Shown one piece after another: positions 4,118 to 31,070 of a stretch of DNA of 59,581 bases. Source of the DNA: a virus. The stretch covers positions 1 through 59,581 of the IMG/VR virus record IMGVR_UViG_3300031578_000032, one strand, 5' to 3'. Position 1 is the first letter of the stretch, and every line of letters starts with the position of its first letter. Both the position numbers and the translations under genes were made by a program. The notes under the pieces were generated by a model. The model saw nothing but the letters and a program-made list of their open reading frames with translations. It had not been told where the DNA came from and searched no databases.

Positions 4118-5079
4118 CTAAATAATACACTCCTATTTTTATATCTCTTTAACTCTTCTAATGTATATTCATCACCTTCTGGTTGAGGATCTTCTATGTT
4201 CTTTATATAATATTTTATTGAGCTTCTTATTACTTCCATATCACAATTAGAAGTATAATTATTACATATATGCCAACCTGGAATTTTTTTATCAGGGGTT
4301 TCAAATACGTTGGTAATTGGGTTATTTATAGTTGGCCAACAATTATACAAGTTTCCATATTCATCAATAATAATTCCTGAACTACACATATGATATTTTT
4401 GTACACTATCTTTATCATAAAATAATTCCTTCTCACTATCTTCAAACATATCCCAATTATCAAACTCCTCTTTATATTCAATATATTTTTTATCATTTAT
4501 GATCTGATCAATGGGGCATACTATGGTGGGTATATCATAATTCTTATGCATATAATGATATATAAGTCCCATGTTTTCCATTTGCATCATCAGAACAGCA
4601 TGATATAATTGCATATTATCATTTAAATATCTTGCTTTTTCAAACCATTCATCTGGATCTTTCACCCAATCACTATGAAAGGAAGCAGCATATATTAATT
4701 CTTTTGGGAGACTCTTAAAATACTCTAAGGGTTTTATTAAGTTTGTGGTTATTAGAATATCAACGTTTCTTTTACCTTCAAAGTATTTTTTAATTTTATA
4801 AACCATATCAGATAGATGTGGATTTAATGTTGGTTCGCCTCCAAAGAAATTAATACAAATATTCGGTTTCTTTGGATGATCTTGTATATCAATAAATTGA
4901 ATAACCTTATCTATATCTGATAAGTCCATATATCTTGATTTTTTAGAATCACCAGTAAGAACATCACAATACCAACATTTGATATTACAAAACTTTGTAA
5001 CTAATAGAGTTACAAACATAGTCCTACTGATGTCTATCAAATCTCTATTGCTCATTAATTTATCATCTTTGAATTTCAT
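4105..5079 (-). CDS. Radical SAM protein (subfamily B, copy 2)
   Basis: The chosen start is the ATG at 5079 (MKFKDDKLMS), preceded by AAAAGGAATAAAA; a longer frame to 5139 lacks a ribosome binding site and would overlap the upstream gene deeply. CNIKCWYC is at Cys31/35/38, followed by NFFGGEPTLNPHL, DPDEWFEKARYLND and the C-terminal cluster region (MCSSGIIIDEYGNLYNCW, then WHICNNYTSNCDMEVIRSSIKYY). The same order of motifs is seen in the flanking genes. Function: SAM radical chemistry on an unknown substrate, inferred from family membership. Confidence 0.87.
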   Translation of the reverse strand: MKFKDDKLMSNRDLIDISRTMFVTLLVTKFCNIKCWYCDVLTGDSKKSRYMDLSDIDKVIQFIDIQDHPKKPNICINFFGGEPTLNPHLSDMVYKIKKYFEGKRNVDILITTNLIKPLEYFKSLPKELIYAASFHSDWVKDPDEWFEKARYLNDNMQLYHAVLMMQMENMGLIYHYMHKNYDIPTIVCPIDQIINDKKYIEYKEEFDNWDMFEDSEKELFYDKDSVQKYHMCSSGIIIDEYGNLYNCWPTINNPITNVFETPDKKIPGWHICNNYTSNCDMEVIRSSIKYYIKNIEDPQPEGDEYTLEELKRYKNRSVLFRCNA

Positions 5080-6034
5080 TTTTATTCCTTTTAAAATAAT
5101 CAATTGAATATTTTGGATGGTGAATATCACATATATCACAATTATCGTATAAACATATATGCCAATCAGGAATTTTTTTCAATGCATCCTTAAAAATATT
5201 TAGAATAGGTGATGCCTCAGGATCATCAAATTTTCTCCAACAGTAATACACATCTCCATTCTCTGCAACCCTAAATTTACAATTGCACATCATCAGCTTG
5301 AAGTTATGAAATTGAAAGCCGTCTAAACTCCCCTTTGAACCATCCTTAAATAATATTTCACAATTAGTCGTGTCCTCTTGTTCATACTTATATTGACCCA
5401 GATAGTCTGCATTATATTTTTTAGCTACGTGTTTTGCCCAATCCGTTCCAACCAATTGTTCTTGCACCACAAGTTCATAAACTGAAAATTCATCTGATTT
5501 GTATTTGTCATAAATTTTAACAATTTCTTTTTCATTCTCTGGTGTTAATATGAACTTAATATCTCTTATCATTCCTTTCTTATTAAGATAATATACTTTC
5601 GAGAACCATTGAGCCGGATCTTTAATAGCATGATAATGATATGAGCATGAGAATTTTGTTTGCTTTGGCCAGTTGTATCTCCAATACTCAAATGGTTTCA
5701 TTAAATTTGTAAGAGTATGAATTTTTAACAACTTTTTTCCTTCGTCAAAGTATTCAGTGTCAAGTATTGTATGGAATTCTCTAAAGAGGTGATGTGCTGT
5801 TGGTTCGCCTCCAAAGAACTCAAATGTATAATGTTTATAATCCTGTAATTCTAAAAACTTTAATAATCTTCTAAAGTTACTCCCAGAAGCATAATAATAA
5901 CTATCCTTTCTTTTATTACAACCCCGACTACAATAATTACATCTTACATTACAATTTTCAGTTGGAATATAAATTACCTTACATACTTCATCCCAGTAAT
6001 TTGGATCTACTATACAAAATTTATCAAGTTTCAT
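5063..6034 (-). CDS. Radical SAM protein (subfamily B, copy 3)
   Basis: The 323-residue protein carries CNVRCNYC (Cys28/32/35) and an unusual extra Cys in the following SRGCN, then EFFGGEPTAHHLF. The C-terminal part reads MMCNCKFRVAENGDVYYCWRKF, then WHICLYDNCDICDIHHPKYSIDYFKRN, the clearest version of the operon-specific C-terminal cysteine pattern. It overlaps both neighbours by about 11-17 bases. The central DPAQWFSKVYYLNKKG segment matches the WFxKxxxLN element of its paralogues. Confidence 0.87.
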   Translation of the reverse strand: MKLDKFCIVDPNYWDEVCKVIYIPTENCNVRCNYCSRGCNKRKDSYYYASGSNFRRLLKFLELQDYKHYTFEFFGGEPTAHHLFREFHTILDTEYFDEGKKLLKIHTLTNLMKPFEYWRYNWPKQTKFSCSYHYHAIKDPAQWFSKVYYLNKKGMIRDIKFILTPENEKEIVKIYDKYKSDEFSVYELVVQEQLVGTDWAKHVAKKYNADYLGQYKYEQEDTTNCEILFKDGSKGSLDGFQFHNFKLMMCNCKFRVAENGDVYYCWRKFDDPEASPILNIFKDALKKIPDWHICLYDNCDICDIHHPKYSIDYFKRNKNEIQR

Positions 6035-7019
6035 TTACATTTCCTTTCTTAAAATGTTTCATGTAATAATTAACAGAACATTTTGGATATTCTAAATCAC
6101 ATATACACTTCTTCTGCTTACATAAAATCCATTCATCAAGCTTCTTTGGTTCATCTTCTCCCAACACCATAACTTTAGGAATGTCATGTAAACATCTAGT
6201 AATTTTTCCATTGGGATGTACTGATATTTCACAATGACACATCATAAAATAAAAACTTCTATATTTATCATAGTTCAAGTAATCATTTGTACCATCAGAT
6301 AACATAACTTTTATACTTTCACTATCTAATTCTTCATCCCCTCTACAATCAACATGAGTATTGAAGTATTCAAAAGTACCTGAATCTGTTAATTCTTTAA
6401 ATTCTTTATCATATGCAAATTCATTTATTGGATAGACAGTTACCAAATCTACAATGTTTTCATCACTATACTTTATCAAATATTTATCTTTATATTTATC
6501 ATAAACTTCTTTAATCTTATCAGCATTTTTTTCAGTTAGCATTAAAAATACTTTTGATAAACAACCTTTATCATATAAAAGTTCTACTTTAGAAAACCAT
6601 TCTTCATCATCTTTAACACCATGACTGTGATATGAACACGTAAAATCAAAAGACTCTTTAAGTGGTAAACTTTTAAAATATTCATATGGTTTTAATAAAT
6701 TTGTAACTACATGAATATAACTATTTTTTAACTTACCTGCTTCATCAAGAAAGTATGGAAAATCCCTATGAACAGTTGGTTCTCCTCCAATTAAAGTCAT
6801 TGAAATTCTAGGTCTTTCTTGGATTAAAAGGAGTTTAATAAGTTCAGAGAATTGATTTTTTGATAAAAAGTCATATCTTTTTCTCGGTTTATCAAATCCG
6901 CCAATACAATAGTAACAACTATTATTACACTTATTTGTTAGAGTTACATTAGCATGAGCTGTTTCAACAAATTCTTTATAACCATGTATTGCATAATACT
7001 CTAATTTATTTTTTTTCAT
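6024..7019 (-). CDS. Radical SAM protein (subfamily B, copy 4)
   Basis: The 331-residue product has CNNSCYYC (Cys31/35/38), TLIGGEPTVHRDF, DDEEWFSKVELLYDKG and a C-terminal MMCHCEISVHPNGKITRC / LCKQKKCICDLEYPKCSVNYYMKH block. It most resembles the copy at 5063-6034: both have the double-cysteine CxC before the ENGxV-like turn and a long insertion in the middle. The ATG at 7019 has an AGGATAACTC leader, so this gene has its own ribosome binding site although it overlaps the upstream gene. Confidence 0.87.
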   Translation of the reverse strand: MKKNKLEYYAIHGYKEFVETAHANVTLTNKCNNSCYYCIGGFDKPRKRYDFLSKNQFSELIKLLLIQERPRISMTLIGGEPTVHRDFPYFLDEAGKLKNSYIHVVTNLLKPYEYFKSLPLKESFDFTCSYHSHGVKDDEEWFSKVELLYDKGCLSKVFLMLTEKNADKIKEVYDKYKDKYLIKYSDENIVDLVTVYPINEFAYDKEFKELTDSGTFEYFNTHVDCRGDEELDSESIKVMLSDGTNDYLNYDKYRSFYFMMCHCEISVHPNGKITRCLHDIPKVMVLGEDEPKKLDEWILCKQKKCICDLEYPKCSVNYYMKHFKKGNVNET

Positions 7020-7821
7020 GAGTTATCCTATAATATTTTTTCATATCCATTCTTGGATATGCTTGATCACAAAAACAAATTTTAGATATACAAAATGTCC
7101 AGTCTTGAAGGTATTGCATCGGATCTGTATATATGTTAAAGATTTTATATTTTCTATCCATTTGTGCCCAACATCTCATAACATCACCATTTTCTCTAAT
7201 AATAAAACCTGGTTTACACATTTGATTTTTATAATTACCGTATATGTGTTCATAAATATTGTCCCAATCATATGTATTTTTCATTACATCATATGCTTCA
7301 GTTCCCAATATCTGATGGATGGGACATATCCAAAGTTGTCTCCTATTGAAATGTTTATAATATAAGTGTAATATTTGCTTGACATTATTTTCTTGAAGCA
7401 TGAAAAAGACCTCAGAATTTTTTAATGAATAAACCTTTTCAAACCACTTATCTATATCCGGAATCCAATCAGAATGAAACGAAGCATTAATTATAAAATT
7501 ATCGTACTTATTAAATTGTTCAAAATATTTCTTTGACCTTAATAAATTAGTGTGCATAAGCAAAGTAACGTTGTCAAATTCTTTATTTAATCTATCAGTA
7601 TATTCAATTAGTTTTGGATGTAACGTTGGTTCACCTCCATAGAATTGAAAGAAAAGATTCTCTTTTTTATGCAGATGTATAAACTCAATAACTTTATCAA
7701 AATTATGTTCGACTGTTTCTCTAACATCTTTTTCTTCATTCCAATAACAATACCAACACTTTATATTACATTTTTGAGTTAATACAAATGTTATTTCAAG
7801 AGTAGTATTATAATCAATCAT
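7006..7821 (-). CDS. Radical SAM protein (subfamily B, copy 5, shortest)
   Basis: This is the shortest of the group at 271 residues. It has CNIKCWYC (Cys18/22/25), FQFYGGEPTLHPKL, DIDKWFEKVYSLKNS and a C-terminal MCKPGFIIRENGDVMRCW / WTFCISKICFCDQAYPRMDMKKYY block. Its N-terminus starts almost directly at the first radical SAM strand, without the leader of about 10-20 residues present in its paralogues. It may be close to the minimal form of the family. The start overlaps the stop of the upstream gene as ATGA. Confidence 0.87.
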   Translation of the reverse strand: MIDYNTTLEITFVLTQKCNIKCWYCYWNEEKDVRETVEHNFDKVIEFIHLHKKENLFFQFYGGEPTLHPKLIEYTDRLNKEFDNVTLLMHTNLLRSKKYFEQFNKYDNFIINASFHSDWIPDIDKWFEKVYSLKNSEVFFMLQENNVKQILHLYYKHFNRRQLWICPIHQILGTEAYDVMKNTYDWDNIYEHIYGNYKNQMCKPGFIIRENGDVMRCWAQMDRKYKIFNIYTDPMQYLQDWTFCISKICFCDQAYPRMDMKKYYRITHEKK

Positions 7822-8651
7822 AGTATATCCATAATGGGGTCATCTGATTTAAAAAACCTATCTTTCAATCCTATTTTCTGTAGTTCATGATAACGATACC
7901 ATGAACCATCCTTTATTTTATATTGGTTATTGTATATTATGTTCTTGTTATAAAAATAAGCCTCCATTAATAATCTACATCTAGGTTCAAAATATAGCCC
8001 ATCATGAATATACATATAAGTATCCCATAGTTCAAAAAAGTTTTTTGGATGTTTAACTAAAACTGTTATTCTATTGGTTGGATCAATATTTTTATTACCA
8101 GAAACAATTATATTTTTATTAGTTAATGTTAATGCTCGAGTTAATTCTGTTGCACTTTTACCTGAACAATTAATATAACAATTACTTCTATCCTTTTTAA
8201 CTTCTTTGTAAAGGTCAAATGGAAACCTTAATTTATAATCAACATTTCCAACACCAAATGGCATTTCATTATAAACAGTATAGTTTGGTCTATCAATGTA
8301 GTCGTAAAATCTTTTTATGTAATTTTTATCATGATCGTAAATAATGTGATAGTGTGAGGCAAGTGTGTATGGAAGAACAGAAGTTGTACCATAGTCCATT
8401 ATAAGAATATTGTCAAAAGAGAGGTATATGAGTTTGTATTCTGTTTCTAAAACTATTATGTTATCTTTGTAATTAAAATCTATATTATATCTATCTCTAA
8501 TTATTTTAAATACATCTTCTAATGTAAGATGACGCTTTATAATAAGAATTAATTTTGTATCTTTATTTAATTTTTGTGTTTGCAAATAATATTCTATAAC
8601 ATCAATTAGTGCACCATTAATATGATAACATCTGAATATTATAGCATTCAT
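7818..8651 (-). CDS. Putative GT-B-like glycosyltransferase, first gene of the radical SAM operon
   Basis: The ATG at 8651 is preferred because AAAGG lies 8 bases upstream; a GTG at 8660 would place the start on top of that site. The 277-residue protein has no motif I recognise with certainty. The C-terminal stretch ITVLVKHPKNFFELWDTYMY, then FEPRCRLLMEAYFYNKNIIY resembles the donor-binding end of GT-B glycosyltransferases, where an E-x-R...EA pattern precedes a short strand. Its position ahead of the epimerase and radical SAM genes fits a sugar-transfer role, but this is inference. Confidence 0.45.
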   Translation of the reverse strand: MNAIIFRCYHINGALIDVIEYYLQTQKLNKDTKLILIIKRHLTLEDVFKIIRDRYNIDFNYKDNIIVLETEYKLIYLSFDNILIMDYGTTSVLPYTLASHYHIIYDHDKNYIKRFYDYIDRPNYTVYNEMPFGVGNVDYKLRFPFDLYKEVKKDRSNCYINCSGKSATELTRALTLTNKNIIVSGNKNIDPTNRITVLVKHPKNFFELWDTYMYIHDGLYFEPRCRLLMEAYFYNKNIIYNNQYKIKDGSWYRYHELQKIGLKDRFFKSDDPIMDIL

Positions 8652-8665
8652 ATATTTCACCTTTC

Positions 8666-14465: not shown

Positions 14466-14864
14466 ATGAAAATTCCAACTTTAAAAATCGACAAATCTTT
14501 ACCTCACCATTACCTCTTTAGTGTAGCAATTCATACTATGAAAAGTAAAAATGCAGGGCAGATGTTTTTAAAACACGGTCCAATTTATTATACCAATGAT
14601 GATGTTGTTAGAATGTCGAATGTCATTTCAAGATGTACAGATAAGGTATATGAACAAACACAAATGGAAGCAGCAGAAGCTGAAGGTTGTACTCAACTTA
14701 TATCTTCAATAGCAGGTATGAGATTATCAGCTAATGCAAACAGTTGTACTATACATCATTTTTCATCAGCTATAAAATTTGGTGACGATGATCTTGTGTT
14801 ATTAGTTAAGTTAGCAAATACAGATAAATCTTCTAAAAAAAAATTAATGGAGGCAAAAATATGA
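14466..14864 (+). CDS. Hypothetical protein, first gene of the plus-strand accessory unit
   Basis: The 132-residue product (MKIPTLKIDKSLPHHYLFSV) has no signal peptide, membrane segment or known motif that I can see. It looks like a compact alpha/beta cytosolic protein with a lysine-rich tail. AAAAAAGGATTAAGATCTA precedes the ATG. Its stop overlaps the start of the NADAR gene, so the two are probably translated together. Confidence 0.7.
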   Translation: MKIPTLKIDKSLPHHYLFSVAIHTMKSKNAGQMFLKHGPIYYTNDDVVRMSNVISRCTDKVYEQTQMEAAEAEGCTQLISSIAGMRLSANANSCTIHHFSSAIKFGDDDLVLLVKLANTDKSSKKKLMEAKI

Positions 14865-15319
14865 TTAATTCGTTTAAAAATCAACATAAATTTCTTTCAA
14901 ACTTTTATCAAGTTTCAATAAATTTTGAAGGAATTATATATCCAACAGTTGAACATGTATACCAAGCAGCAAAATCATTTGATACTATATATAGAGATAA
15001 GATATCAAGCATTCCGTGGTATAAACCTGGAACAGCTAAAATGTATGGGAACAAGGTTAAGATTCGACCAGATTGGGAAAAAGTTAAAGTAGATATTATG
15101 AAAAAGTTATTGTATAAAAAATTCATGTATCCAGATTTAAGTAACTTATTATTACAGACAGAGGATGATTATCTTGAAGAAGGTAATTTCTGGCATGACA
15201 ATTTCTGGGGAAATTGTAGATGTAAAAAATGCAAAGATATACCCGGTCAAAACATGTTAGGTAAATTATTAATGGATGTACGAGAAGAATTGAAGGAGGA
15301 TACAAATGGTAAAGATTGA
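14861..15319 (+). CDS. NADAR (YbiA-like) family N-glycosidase/de-ADP-ribosylase
   Basis: The 152-residue protein shows the NADAR fold signatures: LSNFYQVSINFEG near the start, TVEHVYQAAKSF in the middle and a WHDNFWG segment before the end. YbiA-like members act on ribose-linked compounds, and some NADAR proteins remove ADP-ribose from guanine in DNA, reversing DarT-type toxin attack. It has an insert CRCKKCKD near the C-terminus, a possible extra metal site. It overlaps the upstream gene by 4 and the MBL gene by 14 bases. With the neighbouring nicotinamidase it suggests NAD/ADP-ribose metabolism or counter-defence (inference). Confidence 0.85.
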   Translation: MINSFKNQHKFLSNFYQVSINFEGIIYPTVEHVYQAAKSFDTIYRDKISSIPWYKPGTAKMYGNKVKIRPDWEKVKVDIMKKLLYKKFMYPDLSNLLLQTEDDYLEEGNFWHDNFWGNCRCKKCKDIPGQNMLGKLLMDVREELKEDTNGKD

Positions 15320-16040
15320 AGTCCTCGGAGTGGGTAATTTGTTCACTCCACAAATAACAAACACCTCTTTTTTATTATCACCTGATATTGGTGGAGATGA
15401 AAAATTTCTTATTGATTGTGGTTATAACGTTTTTCAAAAATTAATTTCTGGTGGTTATGATATTGGAAACATAAAAACTGTAATCATTACTCATACTCAT
15501 CCAGATCATGTTGGTAGTTTGGGAGCATTAATTTATTACAGATGGTTTGTATTTAACAGACATACAACTATTATATGTGGAAATAAAGTTGGTAAATATC
15601 TAAAGGCATATTTAGAGTCAACAGTATTTTATGTTCTTAAACCAGGAGAGATTAGATTGGATAAATATATAGAATGCCCATATTCTCTTGTATCTAATGG
15701 TATACCCACTGGACTTATAACTATGTTTGAAGTTCAACATGGTGATATACCAGCATACGGAGTTTATTTACATAAAGATAAAATAGTTTTTACCGGCGAT
15801 ACAGATCTTTTAAACCCATTATCTACTATGATGTCTAGTGCTGAAATAATATTCCATGATTGTTTAATAGGCCATTTTGCAAGGGGTATTCATTCAAACA
15901 TGGGAGATATGGAAGTAACTTATCCTAAAATAATCAGGGAGAAGATTCAGTTGGTTCATTATGGAAAGAAACTTACACAGAAATTTCTTGATAATGATAT
16001 GACTATTTGTCATGAGGGATCTACTTATACTGTTAAATAA
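15306..16040 (+). CDS. Metallo-beta-lactamase-fold hydrolase (RNase Z/Apyc1-like)
   Basis: The 244-residue protein has the MBL signature HTHPDH (His63, His65, Asp67, His68), a further His at about 145 (VQHGD), the metal-bridging Asp165 in FTGDTD and a late VHYG. The start, EVLGVGNLFTPQITNTSFLL followed by FLIDCGYNV, is the RNase Z/phosphodiesterase type. Phage proteins of this class include Apyc1, which destroys cyclic mononucleotide signals of Pycsar immunity. Size and motifs allow that role but RNase Z-like RNA processing or another phosphodiesterase activity is equally compatible. GGAGGATACAA precedes the ATG. Confidence 0.85.
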   Translation: MVKIEVLGVGNLFTPQITNTSFLLSPDIGGDEKFLIDCGYNVFQKLISGGYDIGNIKTVIITHTHPDHVGSLGALIYYRWFVFNRHTTIICGNKVGKYLKAYLESTVFYVLKPGEIRLDKYIECPYSLVSNGIPTGLITMFEVQHGDIPAYGVYLHKDKIVFTGDTDLLNPLSTMMSSAEIIFHDCLIGHFARGIHSNMGDMEVTYPKIIREKIQLVHYGKKLTQKFLDNDMTICHEGSTYTVK

Positions 16041-16445: not shown

Positions 16446-16883
16446 ATGCACTACAGTAAAATTTTATCTAAAAAATATGCAATTGAAATTTGTAATTTTT
16501 TAAACAATGAAAAAATTAATGGAATAGAGTTTAATATTAATTTTAGAACTGTGGGAGATCATAAAGGTCTTTATGTTACGTTGTTTATTTTTAGAAGACA
16601 GTTTGAATTTAATATATACAATATACATCATGAAAAACACTGTTTTGGATGTGGTGCAGAATTAACGGAAGATAATTTTCTTGAAGAAATATATTTATTA
16701 ACAGGATTAGAAGTATGTAGAGTTTGTGATCATAACGGATATAATATTGATGCTGTTCATCCTATTTTTAGAAGGATTGTTAAAATTAATTGGTCCCATG
16801 ATGAAATACTTAAATTATATAATGAACTTCAACATGCTGGTTATGAAGACATAAAACTAACAATAGAAAAGGAGAAAAAATGA
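16446..16883 (+). CDS. Hypothetical zinc-binding protein
   Basis: The 145-residue protein carries a central pair of CxxC knuckles (HCFGCGAEL and EVCRVCDHNG) about 27 residues apart, likely binding one zinc. The flanks are alpha/beta without known motifs. It sits 5 bases after RNase H and overlaps the nicotinamidase gene by 4, so it belongs to the same transcript. Function unknown. Confidence 0.72.
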   Translation: MHYSKILSKKYAIEICNFLNNEKINGIEFNINFRTVGDHKGLYVTLFIFRRQFEFNIYNIHHEKHCFGCGAELTEDNFLEEIYLLTGLEVCRVCDHNGYNIDAVHPIFRRIVKINWSHDEILKLYNELQHAGYEDIKLTIEKEKK

Positions 16884-17689
16884 AAATTGAATTACTAGTA
16901 ATTGATCCACAGAATGACTTTTGTGACCCTAAAGGGTCGTTATTTGTTTCAGGTGCAGATGCGGATATGGCACGTCTAGCAGCCATGATTGTTCGTCTTA
17001 AAGACAAACTTGATGATATCCATGTTACATTGGATAGTCATCATTTTATTGATGTTGCCCACCCAATCTTTTGGGTAGATTCACAGTCCAATCATCCAGA
17101 TCCGTTTACAATTATCTCTGCCGATGAAGTTGAAAATGGAACATGGAGAACTACAAATCCACAATTCCAGAAACGGGCAAGTGAATATGTTAAGGCTCTT
17201 GAAGCTAACAAACGATATCCCTTATGTATCTGGCCTTATCATTGCTTGATTGGCAGTTGGGGGTATGGTGTTGTTCCAGAATTGTTTGATGCTTTTGTTG
17301 AATGGGAAAAGGATTTTGCATTGGTTGATTATGTAACCAAGGGTTCTAATTTCTGGACCGAACATTATTCAGCAGTTCAAGCAGATGTTCCTGACCCAGA
17401 AGATCCAAGCACTCAACTTAATACAGGGTTAATTAAAACTCTTCAAGATGCAGATATCATTCTTCTTTCTGGAGAGGCACGTTCACATTGTCTGTCGAAT
17501 ACAGTTCGAGATATTGCTGATAATTTTGGAGAAGAGAATGTTAAAAAGATGGTTCTTTTACAGGATGCCACATCTGATGTTCCGGATCCTCCTGGTACAA
17601 CCATGTTCACAGATATGGGAGAACAGTTTGTCAGTGATATGATGGCTAGAGGTATGCAAGTATCAACAACAACAGAGTTCATGAAGTAA
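16880..17689 (+). CDS. pncA: Nicotinamidase/isochorismatase-family hydrolase
   Basis: The 269-residue protein starts with VIDPQNDFCDPKGSL (Asp9 of the catalytic triad), has the metal-site region LDSHHFIDVAHP and WPYHCLIGSWG, a candidate Lys154 (YVTKGSNFW), and the nucleophile region LSGEARSHCL with Cys204. This is the cysteine-hydrolase fold of nicotinamidase, which turns nicotinamide into nicotinic acid for NAD salvage. It is longer than E. coli PncA, with an insert between metal site and Cys. Placement in one operon with NADAR suggests restoring NAD or handling nicotinamide made by NAD-consuming defences (inference). Confidence 0.85.
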   Translation: MKIELLVIDPQNDFCDPKGSLFVSGADADMARLAAMIVRLKDKLDDIHVTLDSHHFIDVAHPIFWVDSQSNHPDPFTIISADEVENGTWRTTNPQFQKRASEYVKALEANKRYPLCIWPYHCLIGSWGYGVVPELFDAFVEWEKDFALVDYVTKGSNFWTEHYSAVQADVPDPEDPSTQLNTGLIKTLQDADIILLSGEARSHCLSNTVRDIADNFGEENVKKMVLLQDATSDVPDPPGTTMFTDMGEQFVSDMMARGMQVSTTTEFMK

Positions 17690-17705: not shown

Positions 17706-18464
17706 ATGCCAAAATTAATGCAAGATAATAATACGCAAGAAATGAAAATTGCTGGTCCAGGTAATTTTACATTTTCAGCAATCCGGATTGAAGATCTTGG
17801 AGCTACAGAATACACTCTGGTAACAATTGTTTGTGATGTTACTGGAAGCGTTAGAACCTTTGCAGATGAATTATTAAAGATGGTTAAAACTGTTGTCAAA
17901 GCATGTAAGAAAAATGCAAGAGCAGAAAATTTATTACTTAGATATGTTTTATTCAACAATGATATTATGGAAGTACATGGGTTTCTTCCAGTAACATCTA
18001 TTAATGAAGATGATTATGAACAACTTAGACCTGCTGGAACAACTGCATTATATGACGCAGTATTCAGTGGAATTGGTGCTACCCTTAAAATGGCAGAGAC
18101 TCTTTCAGCTCAAGACTTTGATGTAAATGGATGTGTTTATATTATCACGGATGGTGATGATAATGCATCTACTTCTTCTCCATCAATGATTAAAGATCAA
18201 AATAATAGAGCTTTAAACAAAGAAGAGATTGAATCTTTAAGGTCTGTTGTTATTGGTATTACTGATGAAAATGCTTTTGATAAAGCATATTTTGTTGGGA
18301 AACTTGAAAAACTTTGTATCGAAGCGGGTATAACCCAGTTTGTTAATGCTGGTGATGCAACGGCATCTACGTTAGCAAGACTGGGTCAACTTATTAGCCA
18401 GAGCATTAGCTCTGTCTCACAGACTTTAGGATCCGGGCAGGCAAGTCAGCCGCTTGTTTTCTAG
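17706..18464 (+). CDS. von Willebrand factor A domain protein (TerY-like), vWA1
   Basis: The 252-residue protein has all three parts of a metal-ion-dependent adhesion site: CDVTGSV (Asp44, Thr46, Ser48), AGTTALYDAV (Thr112/113) and ITDGDDNAS (Asp149). No signal peptide or membrane segment is present, so it acts in the cytosol. TerY proteins with this single-domain layout are encoded with a PP2C phosphatase and a protein kinase in the TerY-P triad; such a phosphatase and kinase follow at 20051 and 21264. Codon choice and the strong AAAGGAGG site suggest high expression. Two hairpins follow the stop. Confidence 0.88.
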   Translation: MPKLMQDNNTQEMKIAGPGNFTFSAIRIEDLGATEYTLVTIVCDVTGSVRTFADELLKMVKTVVKACKKNARAENLLLRYVLFNNDIMEVHGFLPVTSINEDDYEQLRPAGTTALYDAVFSGIGATLKMAETLSAQDFDVNGCVYIITDGDDNASTSSPSMIKDQNNRALNKEEIESLRSVVIGITDENAFDKAYFVGKLEKLCIEAGITQFVNAGDATASTLARLGQLISQSISSVSQTLGSGQASQPLVF

Positions 18465-18514
18465 AGGTTTCATGACTACCTCCTAGTTGGGGTGGCTGAC
18501 AAGGTCCACCCCAA
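18464..18514 (+). terminator. Two tandem hairpins after vWA1
   Basis: GAGGT/ACCTC (18464-18482) and a perfect 9-bp stem TTGGGGTGG/CCACCCCAA (18487-18514) follow the vWA1 stop. They are GC-rich against an AT-rich background but lack a T-run. They could be weak terminators or RNA-stabilising or processing sites. Confidence 0.55.
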
Positions 18515-18704
18515 CAAACAAAAGGAAAACAAAATAGAATATAAAATTATTTTTTGGGCACTCGCTATATTTATTGCTTTAAAAAGTATATCTGTAGGTA
18601 ATGAATTTAATTTATATTATTGGATTAAATATAAAAAGAAATACATTGATTGGTATTTTGGACGAGAAACTTTTAAACAGTTCTTAAGGAGAATTAAAAA
18701 ATGA
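18492..18704 (+). CDS. Small membrane protein with uncertain start
   Basis: The frame contains one hydrophobic segment (IIFWALAIFIALKSISV) followed by a basic tail (YIDWYFGRETFKQFLRRIKK), the layout of a single-span inner-membrane protein. The only canonical start is a GTG at 18492, but it lies inside a strong hairpin and lacks a ribosome binding site. AAAAGGA lies 7 bases before an in-frame ATA at 18534, which would give a protein of 56 residues beginning EYKII after the initiator. The stop overlaps the next gene by 4 bases. The coding nature is likely; the start is not settled. Confidence 0.55.
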   Translation: MADKVHPNKQKENKIEYKIIFWALAIFIALKSISVGNEFNLYYWIKYKKKYIDWYFGRETFKQFLRRIKK

Positions 18705-19810
18705 CAGAAAAGAAACATGTAGCACAAACTTTAATGAACGTTAATATACACCCCGTAACACTTGATATTATGGATCGAGGAATTGAACAACTATTCCCAG
18801 CAATTACAGAAGTTCAAGGATGGTGGGGATATGATCTCTTTAGTAGAAAACCAGGTCCAGCTTACTATGATGAAACTGGTAAACTTCAGTTAACCAACTT
18901 AGACCTGGTATGTTTTTTATGGGAATTATCCAAACGAGATTCTATCATTAATATTCCCGAATATAAAGCAAGACGATCTGGAAGGAGCAGAACAGATCAG
19001 ATACTTGTATCAAATAAGAATAGAAACGGAACAATTGTGGGTCTCCAATCCAACCAAAACTTCTTTAGTTTTTCAGTTAAGATTAAAGATATGAATGTTA
19101 TTGGCGAAAATTCGGTTGGAGATTTTAGAACATTTATGTTAACTGATCTTGATGGTTCATGGTATGAAGGGTGGAGATCAATCCAATTTATGCCAACTTT
19201 AAAAGAAAATAAATGGCTCTATGAAAATAAACTTTTTACAGGAAACACTATATATTTCAAAAACTTTATTGCACCAACCAGATGGACCAGTTTTTTCGGA
19301 CATCATTATTTTATTACTAAACTTATGATTGAGAGACTTGAAGAAGAAGCTTCTTTTTGCCGGGTAGCATATAAATTGATGATACAAAAAGGAATCAAAT
19401 TTCCAGAGGGAAGTGGCCCCCAGTCATATGAATACGATGAAAAAGCAAAGGGAGTAAAAAAAATATTTAATGCATTTGAAGTAAATCTTCAACACTCTCC
19501 TTTTACTGGAGAATATAAAGTACCAAAAGCAAATCAGAAAAATATGATGGAACTCTATAATAGACAAAAAAGATATGGTAAAATCCTTAGTAATCTTCGT
19601 TTTATGATAAGAGCAACTGAATTCTCTCATTATAGTAATCCTGAAAATTTTCCTGCATGGTTGAAAAATACCAAATGGGAACCTAATTATGTCGAAAAGG
19701 GAAAAAGAATAAAATGGCAACGGTTAGTTTTATTCCAACCTGGAGTAGGAGAAACTGCCTGGTCAATCCTCAAGCGAACATATGAAAAATCGACTGAGGT
19801 TGCCGCATGA
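18701..19810 (+). CDS. Hypothetical protein (369 aa) within the vWA/kinase region
   Basis: The product (MTEKKHVAQTLMNVNIHPVT) is soluble, rich in aromatic and basic residues, with no catalytic motif I recognise. Notable segments are EVQGWWGYDLFSRKPGPAYY and FFGHHYFITKLMIERLEEEA. It has a strong AAGGAG site and is followed by a hairpin. It lies between vWA1 and the PP2C gene, so it may be part of the same system, but no known TerY-P component matches it by eye. Confidence 0.75.
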   Translation: MTEKKHVAQTLMNVNIHPVTLDIMDRGIEQLFPAITEVQGWWGYDLFSRKPGPAYYDETGKLQLTNLDLVCFLWELSKRDSIINIPEYKARRSGRSRTDQILVSNKNRNGTIVGLQSNQNFFSFSVKIKDMNVIGENSVGDFRTFMLTDLDGSWYEGWRSIQFMPTLKENKWLYENKLFTGNTIYFKNFIAPTRWTSFFGHHYFITKLMIERLEEEASFCRVAYKLMIQKGIKFPEGSGPQSYEYDEKAKGVKKIFNAFEVNLQHSPFTGEYKVPKANQKNMMELYNRQKRYGKILSNLRFMIRATEFSHYSNPENFPAWLKNTKWEPNYVEKGKRIKWQRLVLFQPGVGETAWSILKRTYEKSTEVAA

Positions 19811-19814
19811 TATT

Positions 19815-19844
19815 ATGAGGAGTAGATTGTATTCTACCCCTCAT
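19815..19844 (+). terminator. Hairpin between cistrons
   Basis: ATGAGGAGTAGA pairs with TCTACCCCTCAT around TTGTAT, with one mismatch in a 12-bp stem. No T-run follows. It sits between the 369-residue protein gene and a small membrane protein gene with its own ribosome binding site. Confidence 0.5.
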
Positions 19845-19868
19845 AAAATAAAAGAAAGGAGATATCAT

Positions 19869-20039
19869 ATGATACCTCAATTTTTAAGTAAAAAATGGAA
19901 ACCTTATGAAGAACCAGCTGAACATATAATAAGAGATAGAGAGTCAAAAATCAAAGATGTAAAATTTAACGGGTCTTCTAAAGCTCTTATCTTTTTTATA
20001 CTCGGTGTTATGTTTACTTCATTATTATTTTATTTTTAA
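19869..20039 (+). CDS. Small tail-anchored membrane protein (56 aa)
   Basis: The ATG at 19869 follows GAAAGGAGATATC, a strong site; the upstream extension to 19782 overlaps another gene and the hairpin. The product starts MIPQFLSKKWKPYEEPAEHI and ends in one hydrophobic segment (ALIFFILGVMFTSLLFYF) right at the C-terminus, a tail-anchor arrangement with the N-terminus in the cytosol. It precedes the PP2C gene by 11 bases. Function unknown. Confidence 0.72.
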   Translation: MIPQFLSKKWKPYEEPAEHIIRDRESKIKDVKFNGSSKALIFFILGVMFTSLLFYF

Positions 20040-20050
20040 AGGAGTTAGAT

Positions 20051-20887
20051 ATGAAAATATACATTGATCATTTATTAAAAATAGGAAAGACTCATAAAGT
20101 ATGTGAGGATTATATTATTTCAGGTCATACCCCAGTCCCTTATATTATTTTATCGGATGGATGTTCTAGTTCTAAAGACACTGATGTTGGGGCTAGAATT
20201 CTATGTTATAGAGCTAAACAATATTTACAACGGAATGGATCTCTTGATTCTGTAAATGAATCTGAAATGGGCGATTATATTATTTGGTCTTCTAAATTAG
20301 CTATAGACCTTCTTGGATTAGATGTAACTGCTTTAGATGCGACTTTAACGATTGCCTATTACGTCAATGGAATATTAAAAATTATTATGTATGGCGATGG
20401 AAATATAGTTTATATTGATAACAATAAAGATAGTATATCAATTGAAATTAATTATACTAAAAATACTCCATATTATTTATCATATGAATTAGATCAAAAA
20501 AGAAAACAAATATATCAGGATAACAACATTAAAAAAACAATTGGGGGCTATTGTTATTATTCAGATATAAATAAAGTAAAAAGTGGAACAACCGGGATAA
20601 TAAAATGTGACAAACCATATATTTCTACTTATATAATTGAACCTAATACAGATCAAACTATTTTAATTTTCTCTGATGGGATTTCAACCTTTTTTAATAA
20701 AGAACAACAAGAATTCTTGCCTATAAAGGATCTTATACAAGATTTTTCATCTTTCAAAACTTTAAAAGGGGAGTTCTTACAAAGAAGGTTATTAAGTAAA
20801 AATGGTGCTATAACTAAGTTAGAACAACAAGGTTATGATCACTTTGATGATTTATCAGTTGGAGCTTTTGTTATTCGATGCAACTAA
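20051..20887 (+). CDS. PP2C-family serine/threonine phosphatase
   Basis: The 278-residue protein has the PP2C metal-binding acids in order: CEDYIISG (Glu19/Asp20), LSDGCSS (Asp36-Gly37), MYGDGNIVY (Asp116-Gly117), FSDGIS (Asp209-Gly210) and HFDDLSVGAF (Asp266/Asp267). These bind two metal ions for phosphate hydrolysis. The order and length match the compact bacterial form encoded with TerY-type vWA proteins and a kinase. It acts in the cytosol and probably reverses the action of the kinase at 21264 or controls the vWA protein. Its last codons overlap the next small gene. Confidence 0.87.
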   Translation: MKIYIDHLLKIGKTHKVCEDYIISGHTPVPYIILSDGCSSSKDTDVGARILCYRAKQYLQRNGSLDSVNESEMGDYIIWSSKLAIDLLGLDVTALDATLTIAYYVNGILKIIMYGDGNIVYIDNNKDSISIEINYTKNTPYYLSYELDQKRKQIYQDNNIKKTIGGYCYYSDINKVKSGTTGIIKCDKPYISTYIIEPNTDQTILIFSDGISTFFNKEQQEFLPIKDLIQDFSSFKTLKGEFLQRRLLSKNGAITKLEQQGYDHFDDLSVGAFVIRCN

Positions 20888-21072
20888 CCAGAAGGAAAGA
20901 CTTAAGAATAGCAATTCTCTTACATATTGCTAACACTATTAGTGGTGAATTAATGGATTGGAATGGTTTAGAAGGGTGGTTGAATTTTAAATTTATTAAC
21001 GAAAAAGAAAGAGATATAGCAGCTGATATGTTTATAGCAGAAATACATCGTTTGCACAAAAGAATTGATTAA
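20878..21072 (+). CDS. Small hypothetical protein between phosphatase and kinase genes
   Basis: A 64-residue helical product (MQLTRRKDLRIAILLHIANT) starts at an ATG overlapping the PP2C stop by 10 bases, so it may be translated by coupling; GGAG lies about 13 bases upstream. No motif recognised. It contains DWNGLEGWLNFKF and ends in basic residues. Gene content between the phosphatase and kinase genes suggests a role in the same system, but this is inference. Confidence 0.6.
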   Translation: MQLTRRKDLRIAILLHIANTISGELMDWNGLEGWLNFKFINEKERDIAADMFIAEIHRLHKRID

Positions 21073-21082
21073 GGAGAAAAAA

Positions 21083-21289
21083 ATGCCATACTATAAATGT
21101 AGCGGATGCCACCATGAGTGGGAAGATTCTCAAGAACGAAAATGTGATTGGTGTGATACAAAAAACCCAATAGTTCTTGAAGAAAAAACTCCGTTAGAGA
21201 AATTTGTAAAAATACTTTTAAAAGATCCAGTCGGATTCTTTAAAGGAATAGGGGATAATAAAGATGTATCACATACGAGGAAAAAATAA
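21083..21289 (+). CDS. Small zinc-ribbon protein upstream of the kinase gene
   Basis: The ATG at 21083 follows AAGGAGAAAAAA. The 68-residue protein starts MPYYKCSGCHHEWEDSQERK and continues with CDWCDTKNP, so two CxxC pairs form a zinc ribbon within the first 30 residues; the rest is helical and basic. Its 3' end overlaps the kinase start by 26 bases. Zinc ribbons are often fused to or encoded beside kinases of the TerY-P type, so it may be a split-off domain (inference). Confidence 0.72.
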   Translation: MPYYKCSGCHHEWEDSQERKCDWCDTKNPIVLEEKTPLEKFVKILLKDPVGFFKGIGDNKDVSHTRKK

Positions 21290-22952
21290 AAAAGTTAAAT
21301 TTACACAGAACAACTTTATAGCAAAAGGTGGTGAAGGAAGTGTTTATAGAATAGGTAATGTTGTATATAAAATTTATGAAGACTCCTCTAAAATGATTCC
21401 CGAAGCCAAAATTAAAGAACTTAATAATATCAGCGATAGTAACATCATCAAACCTATTGATATTATTTTAGACCCATCTAATAAAGTTGTTGGTTTTACA
21501 ATGAGATATGTAAAAGGTGAACCTTTATGTAAACTATTCACAACTGCTTTTAGAGACAGAAATAATATATCTGATGATATGACTCTTGAACTGGTTGAAA
21601 ACATTAAAGATTCTACCTATAATATTCATTCAAATAAGTGTTTGATTGTGGATGGAAATGAATTAAATTATATGGTTGATAAATCATTTGTTGTTCCATT
21701 TTTCATTGATGTTAATAGTTGGCAAACTCCAAGTTTTCCAGCTACAGCAATTATGTCATCAGTTAGAGACTGGAATGTAAATACATTTTCTGAAATAACA
21801 GATTGGTTCTCATTTGCTATAGTTACATTCCAGTTGTTTGTAGGAATTCATCCATATAAAGGAAAACATGATAAGTATAAAAAGAATGATTTTCAAAAAA
21901 GAGTTGTAGACTGTGTTTCTGTATTTAATAAGAATGTTGGGGTTCCACCTGCAGCAAGGAGTTTTGATTTAATTCCTAACCATTATAAAGATTGGTATTA
22001 TAATCTATTTGAAAAAGGTAAGAGAAATGAACCACCAACTAAACCTGGTGTACGAAGTCCAATTACTACCAGACATATTATTATTAACAGTACAGATAAT
22101 TTTGTAATCAAAGAAATTCATGAGTTTAATTCTGAAATTATTTATTATGATGTAGTATATGGAGTTGAAGTCATTAAAACAAAAAATACCTTATACATTA
22201 ATAATAAAAAATATACAGTAGCACCAAACGTTGAAGTTTTATTTACAACTCAAAATTTAAATCCAATATTTGTTAAAATTGAATCTGGTCAATTGAAGTA
22301 TTTTTCTCCGGACTCTATCAAAATAAATTACTCTAAATTAAACTGTTCAGATAAAATGATTTATAAAAATTCTTTGTTTATAAAAAATGAGGGAAAATTA
22401 ATTGAAATATCTCTCAAGGAAATGAATAAACAAATATTTCCAACAGTAAAACATACATGGGGAATACTTCCGTATGCTAGTGAAATGTTTAGTGGGTGTG
22501 TTTCTCAAAGTGTATTTGGAAGACAGTTCTTTGTTATTATAGAACCAAATTCATCAGGAAATTCTGAATCATATGTTATTAAAGTTGATGATTTAGATGG
22601 TTATCGAGTTATTGATGCTAAATATGAATCCAATGTTTTAATTGCCACAACTTATAAAGATAGTCAATATGATAGGTTTATTATTAAACTTGATCTAAAA
22701 AATAATAAGTACACTTATAGAAAAGAAGAAGGTATTGATTTTATACCTGCTAATTTTATAGTGCTTGACAATGGAATTGTTATAAATATAAATGATCAAG
22801 ATTCCGTTCAGATATTTTCTAATATATACGGAAAAGATGCAGTTAAGGAAATTAAAGATCCTGCAATAGATTCATCAATGAAATTGGTCAAAGATGGAAC
22901 ACAAGCAAAATTTTTCAAAGGTAATAAATTATTTACAATAAAAACAAAATGA
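21264..22952 (+). CDS. Serine/threonine protein kinase with C-terminal beta-rich domain
   Basis: The 562-residue protein has a kinase domain at about 14-270: glycine loop KGGEGSVYRI, Lys36 (VVYKIYE), Glu47 in helix C, a catalytic-loop equivalent VDGNELNYMVD (Asp130, Asn135), FFIDVNSWQ (Asp149) in place of DFG, and DWFSFAIVTFQLFVGIHPY. The HRD and DFG variants with DxxNExN and DxxSxQ are typical of the TerY-P/YegI kinase group. Residues about 275-562 are beta-strand-rich with repeating hydrophobic patterns, possibly a beta-propeller sensor. It should phosphorylate proteins in the cytosol; substrates unknown. With vWA1 and PP2C it completes a triad. Confidence 0.87.
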   Translation: MYHIRGKNKKVKFTQNNFIAKGGEGSVYRIGNVVYKIYEDSSKMIPEAKIKELNNISDSNIIKPIDIILDPSNKVVGFTMRYVKGEPLCKLFTTAFRDRNNISDDMTLELVENIKDSTYNIHSNKCLIVDGNELNYMVDKSFVVPFFIDVNSWQTPSFPATAIMSSVRDWNVNTFSEITDWFSFAIVTFQLFVGIHPYKGKHDKYKKNDFQKRVVDCVSVFNKNVGVPPAARSFDLIPNHYKDWYYNLFEKGKRNEPPTKPGVRSPITTRHIIINSTDNFVIKEIHEFNSEIIYYDVVYGVEVIKTKNTLYINNKKYTVAPNVEVLFTTQNLNPIFVKIESGQLKYFSPDSIKINYSKLNCSDKMIYKNSLFIKNEGKLIEISLKEMNKQIFPTVKHTWGILPYASEMFSGCVSQSVFGRQFFVIIEPNSSGNSESYVIKVDDLDGYRVIDAKYESNVLIATTYKDSQYDRFIIKLDLKNNKYTYRKEEGIDFIPANFIVLDNGIVININDQDSVQIFSNIYGKDAVKEIKDPAIDSSMKLVKDGTQAKFFKGNKLFTIKTK

Positions 22953-28126: not shown

Positions 28127-29173
28127 ATGTTACAAACACACGTTGCGTTTTGTATTGATGAAAGTGGGTCGGTTACAGGAATTATCAAACCCCTCGTTGA
28201 AGCGTATAATCAAACAGTTATAGATATTCGGGGGTCAGTATTAGACGAAGGTCAAGAAGCGTCAATGACCGCCCTTGCATTTGGAGATAGAGTTCTCCGA
28301 CATAGGATTCTTTATTCTGGTCAACAAGTTCAGACCGTTAAACCTTTAAGTTATAAAGATTTCAATCCAAGTGGGATGACTCCATTATTTGATTCTGTAT
28401 ATCGTGCCATCAAAAAATTAGAAGAGCTGGATGATGGAAAAGAAGATACATCATTTGTTGTATCAGTTATTACAGATGGACAGGAAAATGATTCTCGTGA
28501 TCCAGGTGTTCCAGCAACGATCAGATTGATTGAGCAAAAGACAGTGACTAATCGGTGGACATTTACATTTCTGGTGCCCAACGGTAGTGAAGATGTATTT
28601 TCCAGACAATTTAATATCCCCAGAGGAAATGTTCAAGGTTGGGATACACAAACTGCTGCCGGAACCAAGGAGGCATTTATTGTAAGTTCCAATTCATATC
28701 GAGGATTCTTCAAACAAAAATCTGCTGTCGGTATTGGTAAAAAGATGTCCAGTAAATCATTTTATTCCGATACCTCTGATCTAACCGTAAGGGCAGCAAG
28801 ATCAGAACTATCCGAGATTACCAACCAGGTTGTATTTATAGTGCCTCGTATGGACTGTAAAATTCGTGATGCCATCATTAATCATGGAAGAGAATGGATC
28901 AAGGGTGCAGCATTCTATGCCCTAATTAAAACTGAGAAGAAAGTCCAGCCTTATAAAATGGTTGCTCTTCGAGTTAAAACTTCAGGTAAAGTTTACTCTG
29001 GTCAAGCAGCTCGTGATATGCTCGGTATTGGAAATGCAACAGGAACAGTTCGATTGGTTCCTGGAGATCATGGTAAGTTTGATGTGTTTATTCAATCAAC
29101 AAGCATCAATCGAAAGATTCCAGCTGGTACCGAAGTACTTTATTGGCCAAAAGTCGGAAGTCAAAAGAAATGA
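28127..29173 (+). CDS. von Willebrand factor A domain protein, vWA2
   Basis: The 348-residue protein has a complete MIDAS: CIDESGSV (Asp11, Ser13, Ser15), GMTPLFDSV (Thr85) and VITDGQEND (Asp117). After about residue 200 a separate domain follows (SSKSFYSDTSDLTVRAARSE to the end), with MDCKIRDAIINHGREWIKGA. It has no signal peptide. It is distinct in sequence from vWA1. GAAGGAGGAAAC precedes the ATG and codon use is less AT-biased, indicating strong expression. It heads a cassette of three genes flanked by partial duplications of the neighbouring metalloprotease and ligase genes. Confidence 0.87.
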   Translation: MLQTHVAFCIDESGSVTGIIKPLVEAYNQTVIDIRGSVLDEGQEASMTALAFGDRVLRHRILYSGQQVQTVKPLSYKDFNPSGMTPLFDSVYRAIKKLEELDDGKEDTSFVVSVITDGQENDSRDPGVPATIRLIEQKTVTNRWTFTFLVPNGSEDVFSRQFNIPRGNVQGWDTQTAAGTKEAFIVSSNSYRGFFKQKSAVGIGKKMSSKSFYSDTSDLTVRAARSELSEITNQVVFIVPRMDCKIRDAIINHGREWIKGAAFYALIKTEKKVQPYKMVALRVKTSGKVYSGQAARDMLGIGNATGTVRLVPGDHGKFDVFIQSTSINRKIPAGTEVLYWPKVGSQKK

Positions 29174-29394
29174 AAGTTGCCCAGTGTAATGGTTGTGGGT
29201 ATTGTTGTATGAGCTCTCCATGTGATGTGTCACGTAGATTATATAAAAGCGCTGATATATGCCCACAACTACAATGGCATGAAGATAAAGCTAAATACTT
29301 TTGTGGTTTAATGTTTCTACCAGGAAATATAGGATTTGAATATAGAAAAGAGTTACATGCCGGAGCTGGATGCTGTAGTAATTTGAATAGTTGA
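29170..29394 (+). CDS. Cysteine-cluster protein (YkgJ-like)
   Basis: The start at 29170 overlaps the vWA2 stop (ATGA). The 74-residue product begins MKVAQCNGCGYCCMSSPCDV and later has CPQLQWH, YFCGLMF and GAGCCSN. The CxxCxxCC plus distal cysteines resemble the YkgJ-type Fe-S/zinc-binding domain. Coupling to vWA2 suggests the pair acts together, but the role is unknown. Confidence 0.65.
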   Translation: MKVAQCNGCGYCCMSSPCDVSRRLYKSADICPQLQWHEDKAKYFCGLMFLPGNIGFEYRKELHAGAGCCSNLNS

Positions 29395-29651
29395 GAAAGG
29401 ACATCAAAGAACGAAGTAGAGGAGCTTTATCATACCAACACCAAGCTATTCCTATTGTATTTCAAGTTTTCTTAAGAGCTTATGGTAGTGAACCTTTTCT
29501 ATCTAGAGATTTAACAGAAATAATATTATGTCGATTTCAGGATGGGTTAAAAGCAATTGACTATTCAGATGACGAAATTAAGCATATTATGGGAAACGTT
29601 AGTCATTATATAAATAGTAACAAATCGTCAATGTTTGATGGTTTTATATAA
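29391..29651 (+). CDS. Hypothetical protein with TTG or uncertain start
   Basis: The frame encodes about 86 residues (LSYQHQAIPIVFQVFLRAYG, then FLSRDLTEIILCRFQDGLKA) with natural helical composition. The only reasonable start is a TTG at 29391, overlapping the previous stop as TTGA; an AAAGGA site downstream of it points to no canonical codon. It is the last gene of the vWA2 cassette. Function unknown. Confidence 0.5.
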   Translation: MRKDIKERSRGALSYQHQAIPIVFQVFLRAYGSEPFLSRDLTEIILCRFQDGLKAIDYSDDEIKHIMGNVSHYINSNKSSMFDGFI

Positions 29652-29951: not shown

Positions 29952-31070
29952 TTGGCTGAATTAAAAGTTGAAGTTTGTAAAATTGATGATATTAGAGACC
30001 ATCCTAATGCAGACAAATTAGAACTTGCATACATTGGTGGAAAAAATGGATGGCAATCATGTGTAAGAATTGGGGAGTTTAAAGTGGGTCAAAAGGTGGT
30101 TTATATTCCAGTTGATTCTCTGCTCCCCATGGATGTCGAAAAAATCTTATTTGGGGAAGATTCTAAAATAACCCTAACAAAATCACGAGTTCGTTCTATT
30201 AAAATCAGAGGAGCTATCTCCCAAGGAATGATCGTATCATTAGAAGGTTTGGGTTTAAATCCTCATTTAAAAATAGGAACTGATATAGCAGAAAAATTAG
30301 GAATAGAAAAATATACACCCCCTGAAAAAGGACAACCTTCTCAAATGCAGGCAGTAAAACACCGTCATAAAAATCCCAACTTTAAAAAATATACTGAAAT
30401 TAATCATTTTAAATATTATTCAAATGCTCTAGATGATTTAGAAATAGTAGTAACTGAAAAAATACACGGAACAAATTTTAGGGCTGGATATGTTAAGTTT
30501 AATGCTTATAATCTATGGACTAAATTCCTTAGTTTTATTGGTAAGCTATTTAATAAATGGCAATATGAATTTGCATACGGAAGTCATAATATTCAACTAA
30601 CAAATAAAGGTAAGAAAAATAAAACCTTTTATGGAAAAAATGTCTATTATAAAATAGCTGAACAATATAACTTAAAAAATATACTTAAAGATAATGAAGT
30701 ACTTTATGCTGAAATATATGGGCATGGAATACAAAAAGGTTATACATATGGTTGTAAACAAGATGAACATAAAATGGCAGTTATAGATATAATGATTAAT
30801 GGCAAATATCTTAACCATGCAGATGCAGAATCATTTTGTATGGAAAGAGGATTGCCATATATGAAAGTTTTATATATTGGTAAATATAATTATGAAATTG
30901 TAAATAAATTAGCAAATTCTGAACATTCCTTTGTAGACCCAAAAACAAAACCCATAGAAGGAGTAGTTATAAAACCTGTTATAGAAACTAAAGGATATAT
31001 GGGAAGAATGATATTCAAATGGATTGGTGATAAATATTGGTTAAACAAAGGAAATAGTGATTGGAAATAA
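29952..31070 (+). CDS. RNA ligase (DraRnl/Rnl5-like)
   Basis: The 372-residue protein has an N-terminal OB-fold-like domain (KIDDIRDHPNADKLELAYIG onward) and then a nucleotidyltransferase core: motif I EKIHGTN (Lys170), motif III YAEIYGHG, motif IV EGVVIKP and motif V FKWIGDKYW. The N-terminal domain before the core is the layout of Deinococcus Rnl. It would seal RNA breaks, for example tRNAs cut by host anticodon nucleases. The start is TTG at 29952, with AAAAGGAG 12 bases upstream; no ATG is available. A 5' fragment of a related gene lies at 28006. Confidence 0.86.
   Translation: MAELKVEVCKIDDIRDHPNADKLELAYIGGKNGWQSCVRIGEFKVGQKVVYIPVDSLLPMDVEKILFGEDSKITLTKSRVRSIKIRGAISQGMIVSLEGLGLNPHLKIGTDIAEKLGIEKYTPPEKGQPSQMQAVKHRHKNPNFKKYTEINHFKYYSNALDDLEIVVTEKIHGTNFRAGYVKFNAYNLWTKFLSFIGKLFNKWQYEFAYGSHNIQLTNKGKKNKTFYGKNVYYKIAEQYNLKNILKDNEVLYAEIYGHGIQKGYTYGCKQDEHKMAVIDIMINGKYLNHADAESFCMERGLPYMKVLYIGKYNYEIVNKLANSEHSFVDPKTKPIEGVVIKPVIETKGYMGRMIFKWIGDKYWLNKGNSDWK

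Follow-up and report, generated by a model that had tools for sequence, protein, structure and literature searches.

The stretch of DNA analysed here, hereafter the window, comprises positions 1 to 59,581 of IMG/VR virus record IMGVR_UViG_3300031578_000032, a 59.6-kb contig that is viral, as it encodes a gp23-type major capsid protein, a portal, a tail fibre, DnaB and a DNA polymerase. Between positions 16880 and 22952 its plus strand carries a run of genes that begins with a nicotinamidase-type hydrolase of the isochorismatase fold (269 amino acids (aa), 16880-17689), continues with a vWA-domain protein (252 aa, 17706-18464) and a PP2C-type Ser/Thr phosphatase (278 aa, 20051-20887), and ends with a protein kinase (562 aa, 21264-22952), with smaller accessory open reading frames (ORFs) in between. 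Because all of these genes share one strand and are either separated by at most 27 bases or overlap, they look like one transcription unit. A sequence-only reading of the same DNA had proposed a signalling triad of vWA protein, phosphatase and kinase, akin to the TerY-P module, at 17706-22952; the vWA protein, a 369-aa protein, the phosphatase, a zinc-ribbon ORF and the kinase that it named all lie where it placed them, on the plus strand, but its interval begins one gene late. Comparison of related loci gives us high confidence that the three proposed partners belong to a four-gene unit, which we call the tetrad and which includes the upstream hydrolase.

Linkage and conservation of the four genes

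In three metagenomic phage genomes of very large size (462, 485 and 595 kb), as well as in an IMG/VR contig related to the window, the vWA gene is preceded by the same hydrolase gene as in the window. Homologues were first collected via the kinase, a profile scan of IMG/VR contributing 80 loci to a total of 84 viral ones; in these, the phosphatase gene was found in 82/84, the vWA gene in 81/84 and the hydrolase gene in 80/84. The reverse scan, in which loci were picked by the hydrolase alone, recovered the other three genes in 72 of 80 cases. Counting as complete those tetrads whose four genes lie within 12 kb, and after removal of near-copies, we obtained 119 (66 viral and 53 from bacterial genomes or metagenome-assembled genomes (MAGs)). 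Every one of them occupies a single strand and 113 of the 119 have the order hydrolase-vWA-PP2C-kinase, so the synteny of the three genes first proposed is indeed present in relatives. The order PP2C-kinase-hydrolase-vWA, seen in a few loci, indicates that the linkage withstands rearrangement. In the closest pair, each of the four genes shows purifying selection (ratio of nonsynonymous to synonymous substitution rates, dN/dS, of 0.16-0.38), catalytic residues are near-invariant in all four proteins, and mean identity to the window's copy is highest for the hydrolase (56%, versus 43, 37 and 30% for the others). No description of a nicotinamidase/vWA/PP2C/kinase operon was found in a literature search limited to open-licence full texts; the tetrad is a real and conserved module that has apparently not been described.

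Nicotinamidases convert nicotinamide to nicotinate, which is the entry to the Preiss-Handler route that leads from PncA through PncB, NadD and NadE to nicotinamide adenine dinucleotide (NAD+). The NCBIfam nicotinamidase model NF008623 matches all 34 of the 34 hydrolase homologues scanned, and when the PDB is searched by profile, nicotinamidases come out on top, led by yeast Pnc1 (1.7e-15). The putative catalytic triad D9/K154/C204 aligns with D8/K122/C167 of Pnc1 and the metal ligands D52/H54/H121 with D51/H53/H94, which we take to be the catalytic and metal residues of the yeast enzyme. These six positions are 98-100% conserved in viral copies and invariant in 63/63 bacterial ones. The hydrolase is longer than Pnc1 (269 versus 216 aa) and contains extra segments.

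The vWA protein has the complete MIDAS that had been read from its sequence (D44-x-T46-x-S48, T113 and D149), and this motif is conserved among homologues. Its assignment in the window rests on a match to phrog_7371 (6.5e-10); among 32 relatives, 11 match the Pfam VWA model and one the vWA-TerF-like model, and the protein is TerY-like by its MIDAS and a distant YegL match only. A PDB profile search with it gave no match, and a single-sequence scan of IMG/VR found nothing where profile-based scans succeeded. The protein ends in a serine-rich tail (18396-18461, plus strand), a candidate phosphorylation site, in which S231, S233, S235 and S238 are 96-98% conserved across 66 non-redundant viral copies and are kept in 61, 65, 51 and 64 of 65 bacterial copies, respectively. 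A second vWA-like protein (348 aa, 28127-29173, plus strand; phrog_26613 1.7e-55, phrog_7371 2e-17) is encoded 5 kb downstream of the kinase, and its homologue in locus L005 lies directly upstream of the nicotinamidase gene.

The phosphatase matches Pfam PP2C_2 (PF13672) at 1.5e-9, over the cut-off of that model, and its full set of metal acids, already recognised in the sequence-only reading, is confirmed by the 98-100% conservation of D36, D209, D266 and D267 in 70 non-redundant homologues; a PDB profile search with it returned no match. The kinase, like the vWA protein, is recognisable but divergent. Its kinase domain (residues 1-265, 21264-22058) matches Pfam Pkinase at 1.9e-5, and an AlphaFold2 model (pLDDT 92.8) has a protein-kinase fold across residues 1-267, with a VIA Z of 18.8 to STK17B and BRAF over 240-242 residues. 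The motifs K36, D130-x-N-E-x-N135 and D149-V-N-S-x-Q-T are present, in agreement with the DxxNExN/DxxSxQ type described earlier, and K36, D130, N135 and D149 (the VAIK lysine, catalytic aspartate, asparagine and metal aspartate) are 98-100% conserved. Since a structure search with the whole kinase is dominated by the kinase domain, we modelled the tail separately: the C-terminal 286 residues (277-562, 22092-22952) form a beta-propeller in AlphaFold2 (pLDDT 96.7), with Foldseek matches to Nup133, DDB1 and WDR5 and a VIA Z of 13.6-14.9 to WD40-type propellers and virginiamycin B lyase, a likeness at the level of fold only. The tail is thus beta-rich, as had been suspected, but it is neither the zinc ribbon nor the OB fold of TerY-P kinases. 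A match of the whole model to LRRK2 most likely reflects a common kinase-plus-propeller architecture and is no evidence of kinship.

NAD-gene neighbourhood and distribution

The commonest other neighbours of the tetrad, which were not sought, are genes for an NrtR-type Nudix regulator (a profile that may take in plain Nudix proteins in phages), nicotinate phosphoribosyltransferase (NAPRTase), NAD synthase (NadE) and a NadD-like nucleotidyltransferase, that is, the remainder of the Preiss-Handler pathway together with a known type of NAD regulator. NAD genes number 17.9 per 100 kb in the 2 kb next to the tetrad, drop to 6.0 at a distance of 2-4 kb and reach only 1.2-1.8 from 6 kb outwards; in 14 loci they are found within the span of the tetrad or overlapping it. 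Large tetrad-bearing viral records carry a NAPRTase-family gene in 20/25 cases and NadE in 21/25, with the proviso that some PF04095 matches in large relatives are weak and that these enzymes may be specific for nicotinate or for nicotinamide. Our confidence in an association of the tetrad with NAD genes is high. Just upstream of the tetrad in the window (14861-16040, plus strand) lie a gene for a NADAR-domain protein (7e-25) and then one for a metallo-beta-lactamase-fold protein, the latter matching the anti-Pycsar Apyc1 model below threshold; NADAR, whose presumed role is the processing of ADP-ribose products, is close to the tetrad in 14 viral loci.

A genome scan placed the tetrad on contigs of candidate phyla radiation (CPR) bacteria, Acidobacteriota, Armatimonadota, Myxococcota, Rhodoferax, Bradyrhizobium (B. 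embrapense SEMIA 6208 being one carrier strain) and others, some of them 1.36 and 1.56 Mb long and hence, to our knowledge, longer than any phage genome. Among the 50,697 records of INPHARED, the hydrolase is confined to the three very large genomes from metagenomes mentioned above and a fragment of 6.5 kb. In a tree of 162 kinases (FastTree), viral and bacterial copies are mixed, with at least 10 label changes on well-supported branches, a count that mis-binned contigs inflate in a tree with many weak forks. The kinase closest to that of the window (84% identity, with accessory genes in common) is found in locus L086 (DAOVGR010000034.1), listed in GTDB as a Thermoplasmatales MAG; this is probably a phage contig contaminating an archaeal MAG, and some other MAG copies are probably binned phage contigs as well. 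A single-sequence scan of IMG/VR with the window's DNA polymerase found nothing. Whole or partial tetrads were also seen on IMG/VR contigs of 43-215 kb with isolate-like identifiers (L068, L233, L235, L236, L241 and L243; e.g., 2903405734, 2906610324 and 2636415425), which makes these contigs possible cultivable carriers.

The remaining ORFs within the locus, all on the plus strand, are of narrower distribution. The 369-aa protein (18701-19810), for which profile searches found no Pfam and no PDB match, is known from close relatives, namely six viral loci including the window, in a cluster that spans six viral and two MAG contigs. The zinc-ribbon microprotein claimed earlier exists as a 74-aa ORF at the expected place (21065-21289), but its Zn_ribbon_15 match is weak (0.0043) and it is a clade-specific accessory, with a homologue in L011 and a similar ORF at the same place in L086. 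Three further ORFs, of 70 aa with a hydrophobic segment (18492-18704), of 85 aa with a C-terminal hydrophobic segment (19782-20039) and of 64 aa (20878-21072), were found in the window only, among the loci compared. Given this clade-specific occurrence, we rejected the 369-aa protein, the small and membrane ORFs and the zinc ribbon as novel core parts of the module and regard them as local accessories of one phage group; the sequence-only reading had suggested that the 369-aa protein, the membrane proteins and the zinc ribbon may be novel parts. Elsewhere in the window, the gene at 29952-31070 (plus strand) specifies an RNA ligase that contains a PHA02142 OB-fold domain (1.2e-18), and a like ligase is found near the tetrad in several other viral loci (a cluster of 8). 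The adjacent ORFs 29143-29394 and 29391-29651 (plus strand) each correspond to one half of a single cysteine-rich protein of 177 aa in L005 (3275-3808), which suggests that the window has a frameshift or a split gene here. On the minus strand, 464-8660 holds a tandem row of nine ORFs of similar size (271-344 aa), possibly paralogues.

A candidate phosphorylation switch on NAD salvage

We propose, with a probability of roughly 0.55, that the tetrad is a control module of NAD salvage composed of a nicotinamidase, a vWA adaptor, a PP2C phosphatase and a kinase-propeller, in which a phospho-switch of the vWA protein would gate the nicotinamidase and thereby the supply of NAD+. The hydrolase would turn nicotinamide into nicotinate and so feed the Preiss-Handler route, and the kinase, with its propeller as a docking or sensing domain, would act with the phosphatase to determine whether a partner within the complex is phosphorylated. 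Given the conservation of its four serines, the vWA tail is the most likely target: the kinase would add phosphate to it and the phosphatase would remove it. The vWA protein might then dock on the hydrolase in one phosphorylation state, gating nicotinamide deamidation and NAD+ flux. In phages, such a module could maintain or replenish the NAD+ of the infected host, for instance when NAD-degrading defences have acted or when replication is heavy. The sequences themselves establish which four gene families are involved, that their catalytic residues are intact, that they keep a common strand and order, and that they are linked to NAD genes; which protein is phosphorylated, whether the vWA protein touches the nicotinamidase, in which direction control runs and what a phage gains are elements that we infer. 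Our confidence is moderate for phospho-control of the nicotinamidase-type hydrolase but lower for any specific advantage that a phage might have from it.

More tentatively, and at slightly less than even odds, the tetrad may represent a widespread, undescribed switch of Hanks-type kinase, PP2C and vWA protein on nicotinamidase that very large phages have repeatedly exchanged with bacteria (CPR, Acidobacteriota, Armatimonadota, Myxococcota and rhizobia among them) and that phages use to hold NAD+ against host depletion. No report of post-translational phospho-control of a bacterial nicotinamidase was found in the open-licence literature searched. NAD+ stands at the centre of the conflict of phages with bacteria, and the proposal, if true, would give a function to a vWA-PP2C-kinase triad, which belongs to a class of mostly hypothetical signalling switches. 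With a conserved four-gene unit whose active sites are complete, phospho-control of nicotinamidase becomes directly testable with a few recombinant proteins.

Several observations weigh against control of NAD salvage. The window's hydrolase scores 26 bits on NF008623, compared with a curated cut-off of 174, and thus does not reach the equivalog threshold; we therefore treat it as a member of a distant subfamily and call it nicotinamidase-type, not PncA proper. Some bacterial hosts have a canonical PncA besides the tetrad enzyme, which is then not their only one. The window, itself a fragment, has no match to NAPRTase (PF04095) or NadE, which means that the rest of the pathway is known from relatives only. 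Moreover, a NAD gene lies within about 10 kb in only 32/66 viral and 35/53 bacterial tetrads, and the link is weaker in the window's capsid clade, where tetrad-positive records carry NadE in 2/6 and NAPRTase in 3/6 cases. Capsid relatives that lack the tetrad (records of at least 113 kb) carry these genes in 1/9 and 2/9 cases, a control that points the expected way in a set of few and phylogenetically unbalanced records. Finally, PP2C is absent, and the vWA gene abuts the kinase gene, in bacterial loci L110, L111, L113, L116, L120, L128, L152 and L159, several of them from Myxococcota; hydrolase, vWA protein and kinase may accordingly be the minimal set and the phosphatase may be dispensable, in which case reversibility may not be universal.

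The low model score, the extra segments of the hydrolase and the canonical PncA of some hosts would also fit an isochorismatase-fold protein whose substrate is a different amide or which serves as a scaffold, with the NAD link being secondary. We consider this decidedly unlikely, because the catalytic and metal residues of nicotinamidases are all kept, nicotinamidases are the top relatives in the PDB profile search, and PncB, NadD, NadE and NrtR-type genes surround the tetrad. A different explanation accepts the NAD link and sees in the tetrad a phage weapon that, in a NARP-like manner, restores NAD+ after the action of NADases such as Thoeris, with the kinase arm as an infection sensor. It gains from the co-occurrence of NAD genes in large tetrad phages, from the NADAR genes near viral tetrads, including the one just upstream in the window, and from the fact that NAD+ reconstitution by phages is already established as counter-defence (PMC12774641, PMC13232231). 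However, this operon is also part of ordinary bacterial chromosomes, such as the contigs above 1 Mb, where counter-defence makes no sense, and viral and bacterial copies mix in the kinase tree. We regard counter-defence as unlikely.

Very improbable, in our view, is that the locus is a true TerY-P stress or defence module, carried by phages as a copy of the host triad for mimicry or infection sensing. The three enzymes are the same, in the order of yegL-pphC-yegI and with profile similarity to YegI, YegL and PphC; yet the kinase ends in a propeller, the nicotinamidase is near-obligate, and a search that covered TerD, as opposed to other ter genes, found no match to the TerD family in 26 records (25 large viral records with a tetrad, in addition to the window). 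PADLOC yields only weak kinase-domain matches (mad6, PD-T4-6 and MkoA), and we rejected assignment to a known defence system on that result.

Comparison with known systems

The TerY-P triad of vWA protein, PP2C and Ser/Thr kinase was reportedly described by Anantharaman et al. in 2012, and its OB-fold variant by Gao et al. It combines a TerY-like vWA protein and a PP2C phosphatase with a kinase that bears a zinc ribbon, or an OB fold in the defence variant (PMC11090510). The tetrad shares with it three enzymes of the same superfamilies encoded in one direction, and differs in its propeller-bearing kinase, its lack of terD, its constant nicotinamidase and its NAD-salvage neighbours. What survives of the sequence-only reading is therefore the conserved vWA-PP2C-kinase synteny; membership in TerY-P does not, and the propeller tail and the lack of TerD led us not to file the locus there. 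The yegL-pphC-yegI cluster of Escherichia coli has the same order, which makes "TerY-P-like" fair as an analogy, and distant profile similarity is detectable for all three proteins (kinase to YegI 4e-15, vWA protein to YegL 7e-8, PP2C to PphC 3e-4). This cluster, however, contains no nicotinamidase or NAD gene, and the likeness to YegI is confined to the kinase domain (profile columns 17-254).

Provision of NAD+ by phages has precedents in the jumbo-phage modules of nicotinamide phosphoribosyltransferase (NAMPT) and nicotinamide mononucleotide adenylyltransferase (NMNAT) (PMC7824862) and in the NARP1 enzymes Adps and Namat (PMC12774641, PMC13232231). The tetrad resembles these modules and NARP1/NARP2 in being a putative phage-encoded supply of NAD+, but it would use the deamidating nicotinamidase route and adds a control arm of kinase, phosphatase and vWA protein; a survey of 224 jumbo phages mentions neither PP2C nor TerY. 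NrtR-controlled bacterial NAD operons likewise unite PncB, NadE and NadD with an NrtR-type Nudix regulator in one neighbourhood, whereas here a protein-phosphorylation module is embedded, an arrangement of which the open-licence full texts gave no published example. Finally, the GTPase-centred GAP1-N2 conflict systems include a kinase gene beside PP2C and standalone vWA genes (PMC7159879), but no nicotinamidase or isochorismatase is mentioned for them in that work. By analogy, the tetrad would thus work like a TerY-P triad but is a distinct variant tied to NAD salvage.

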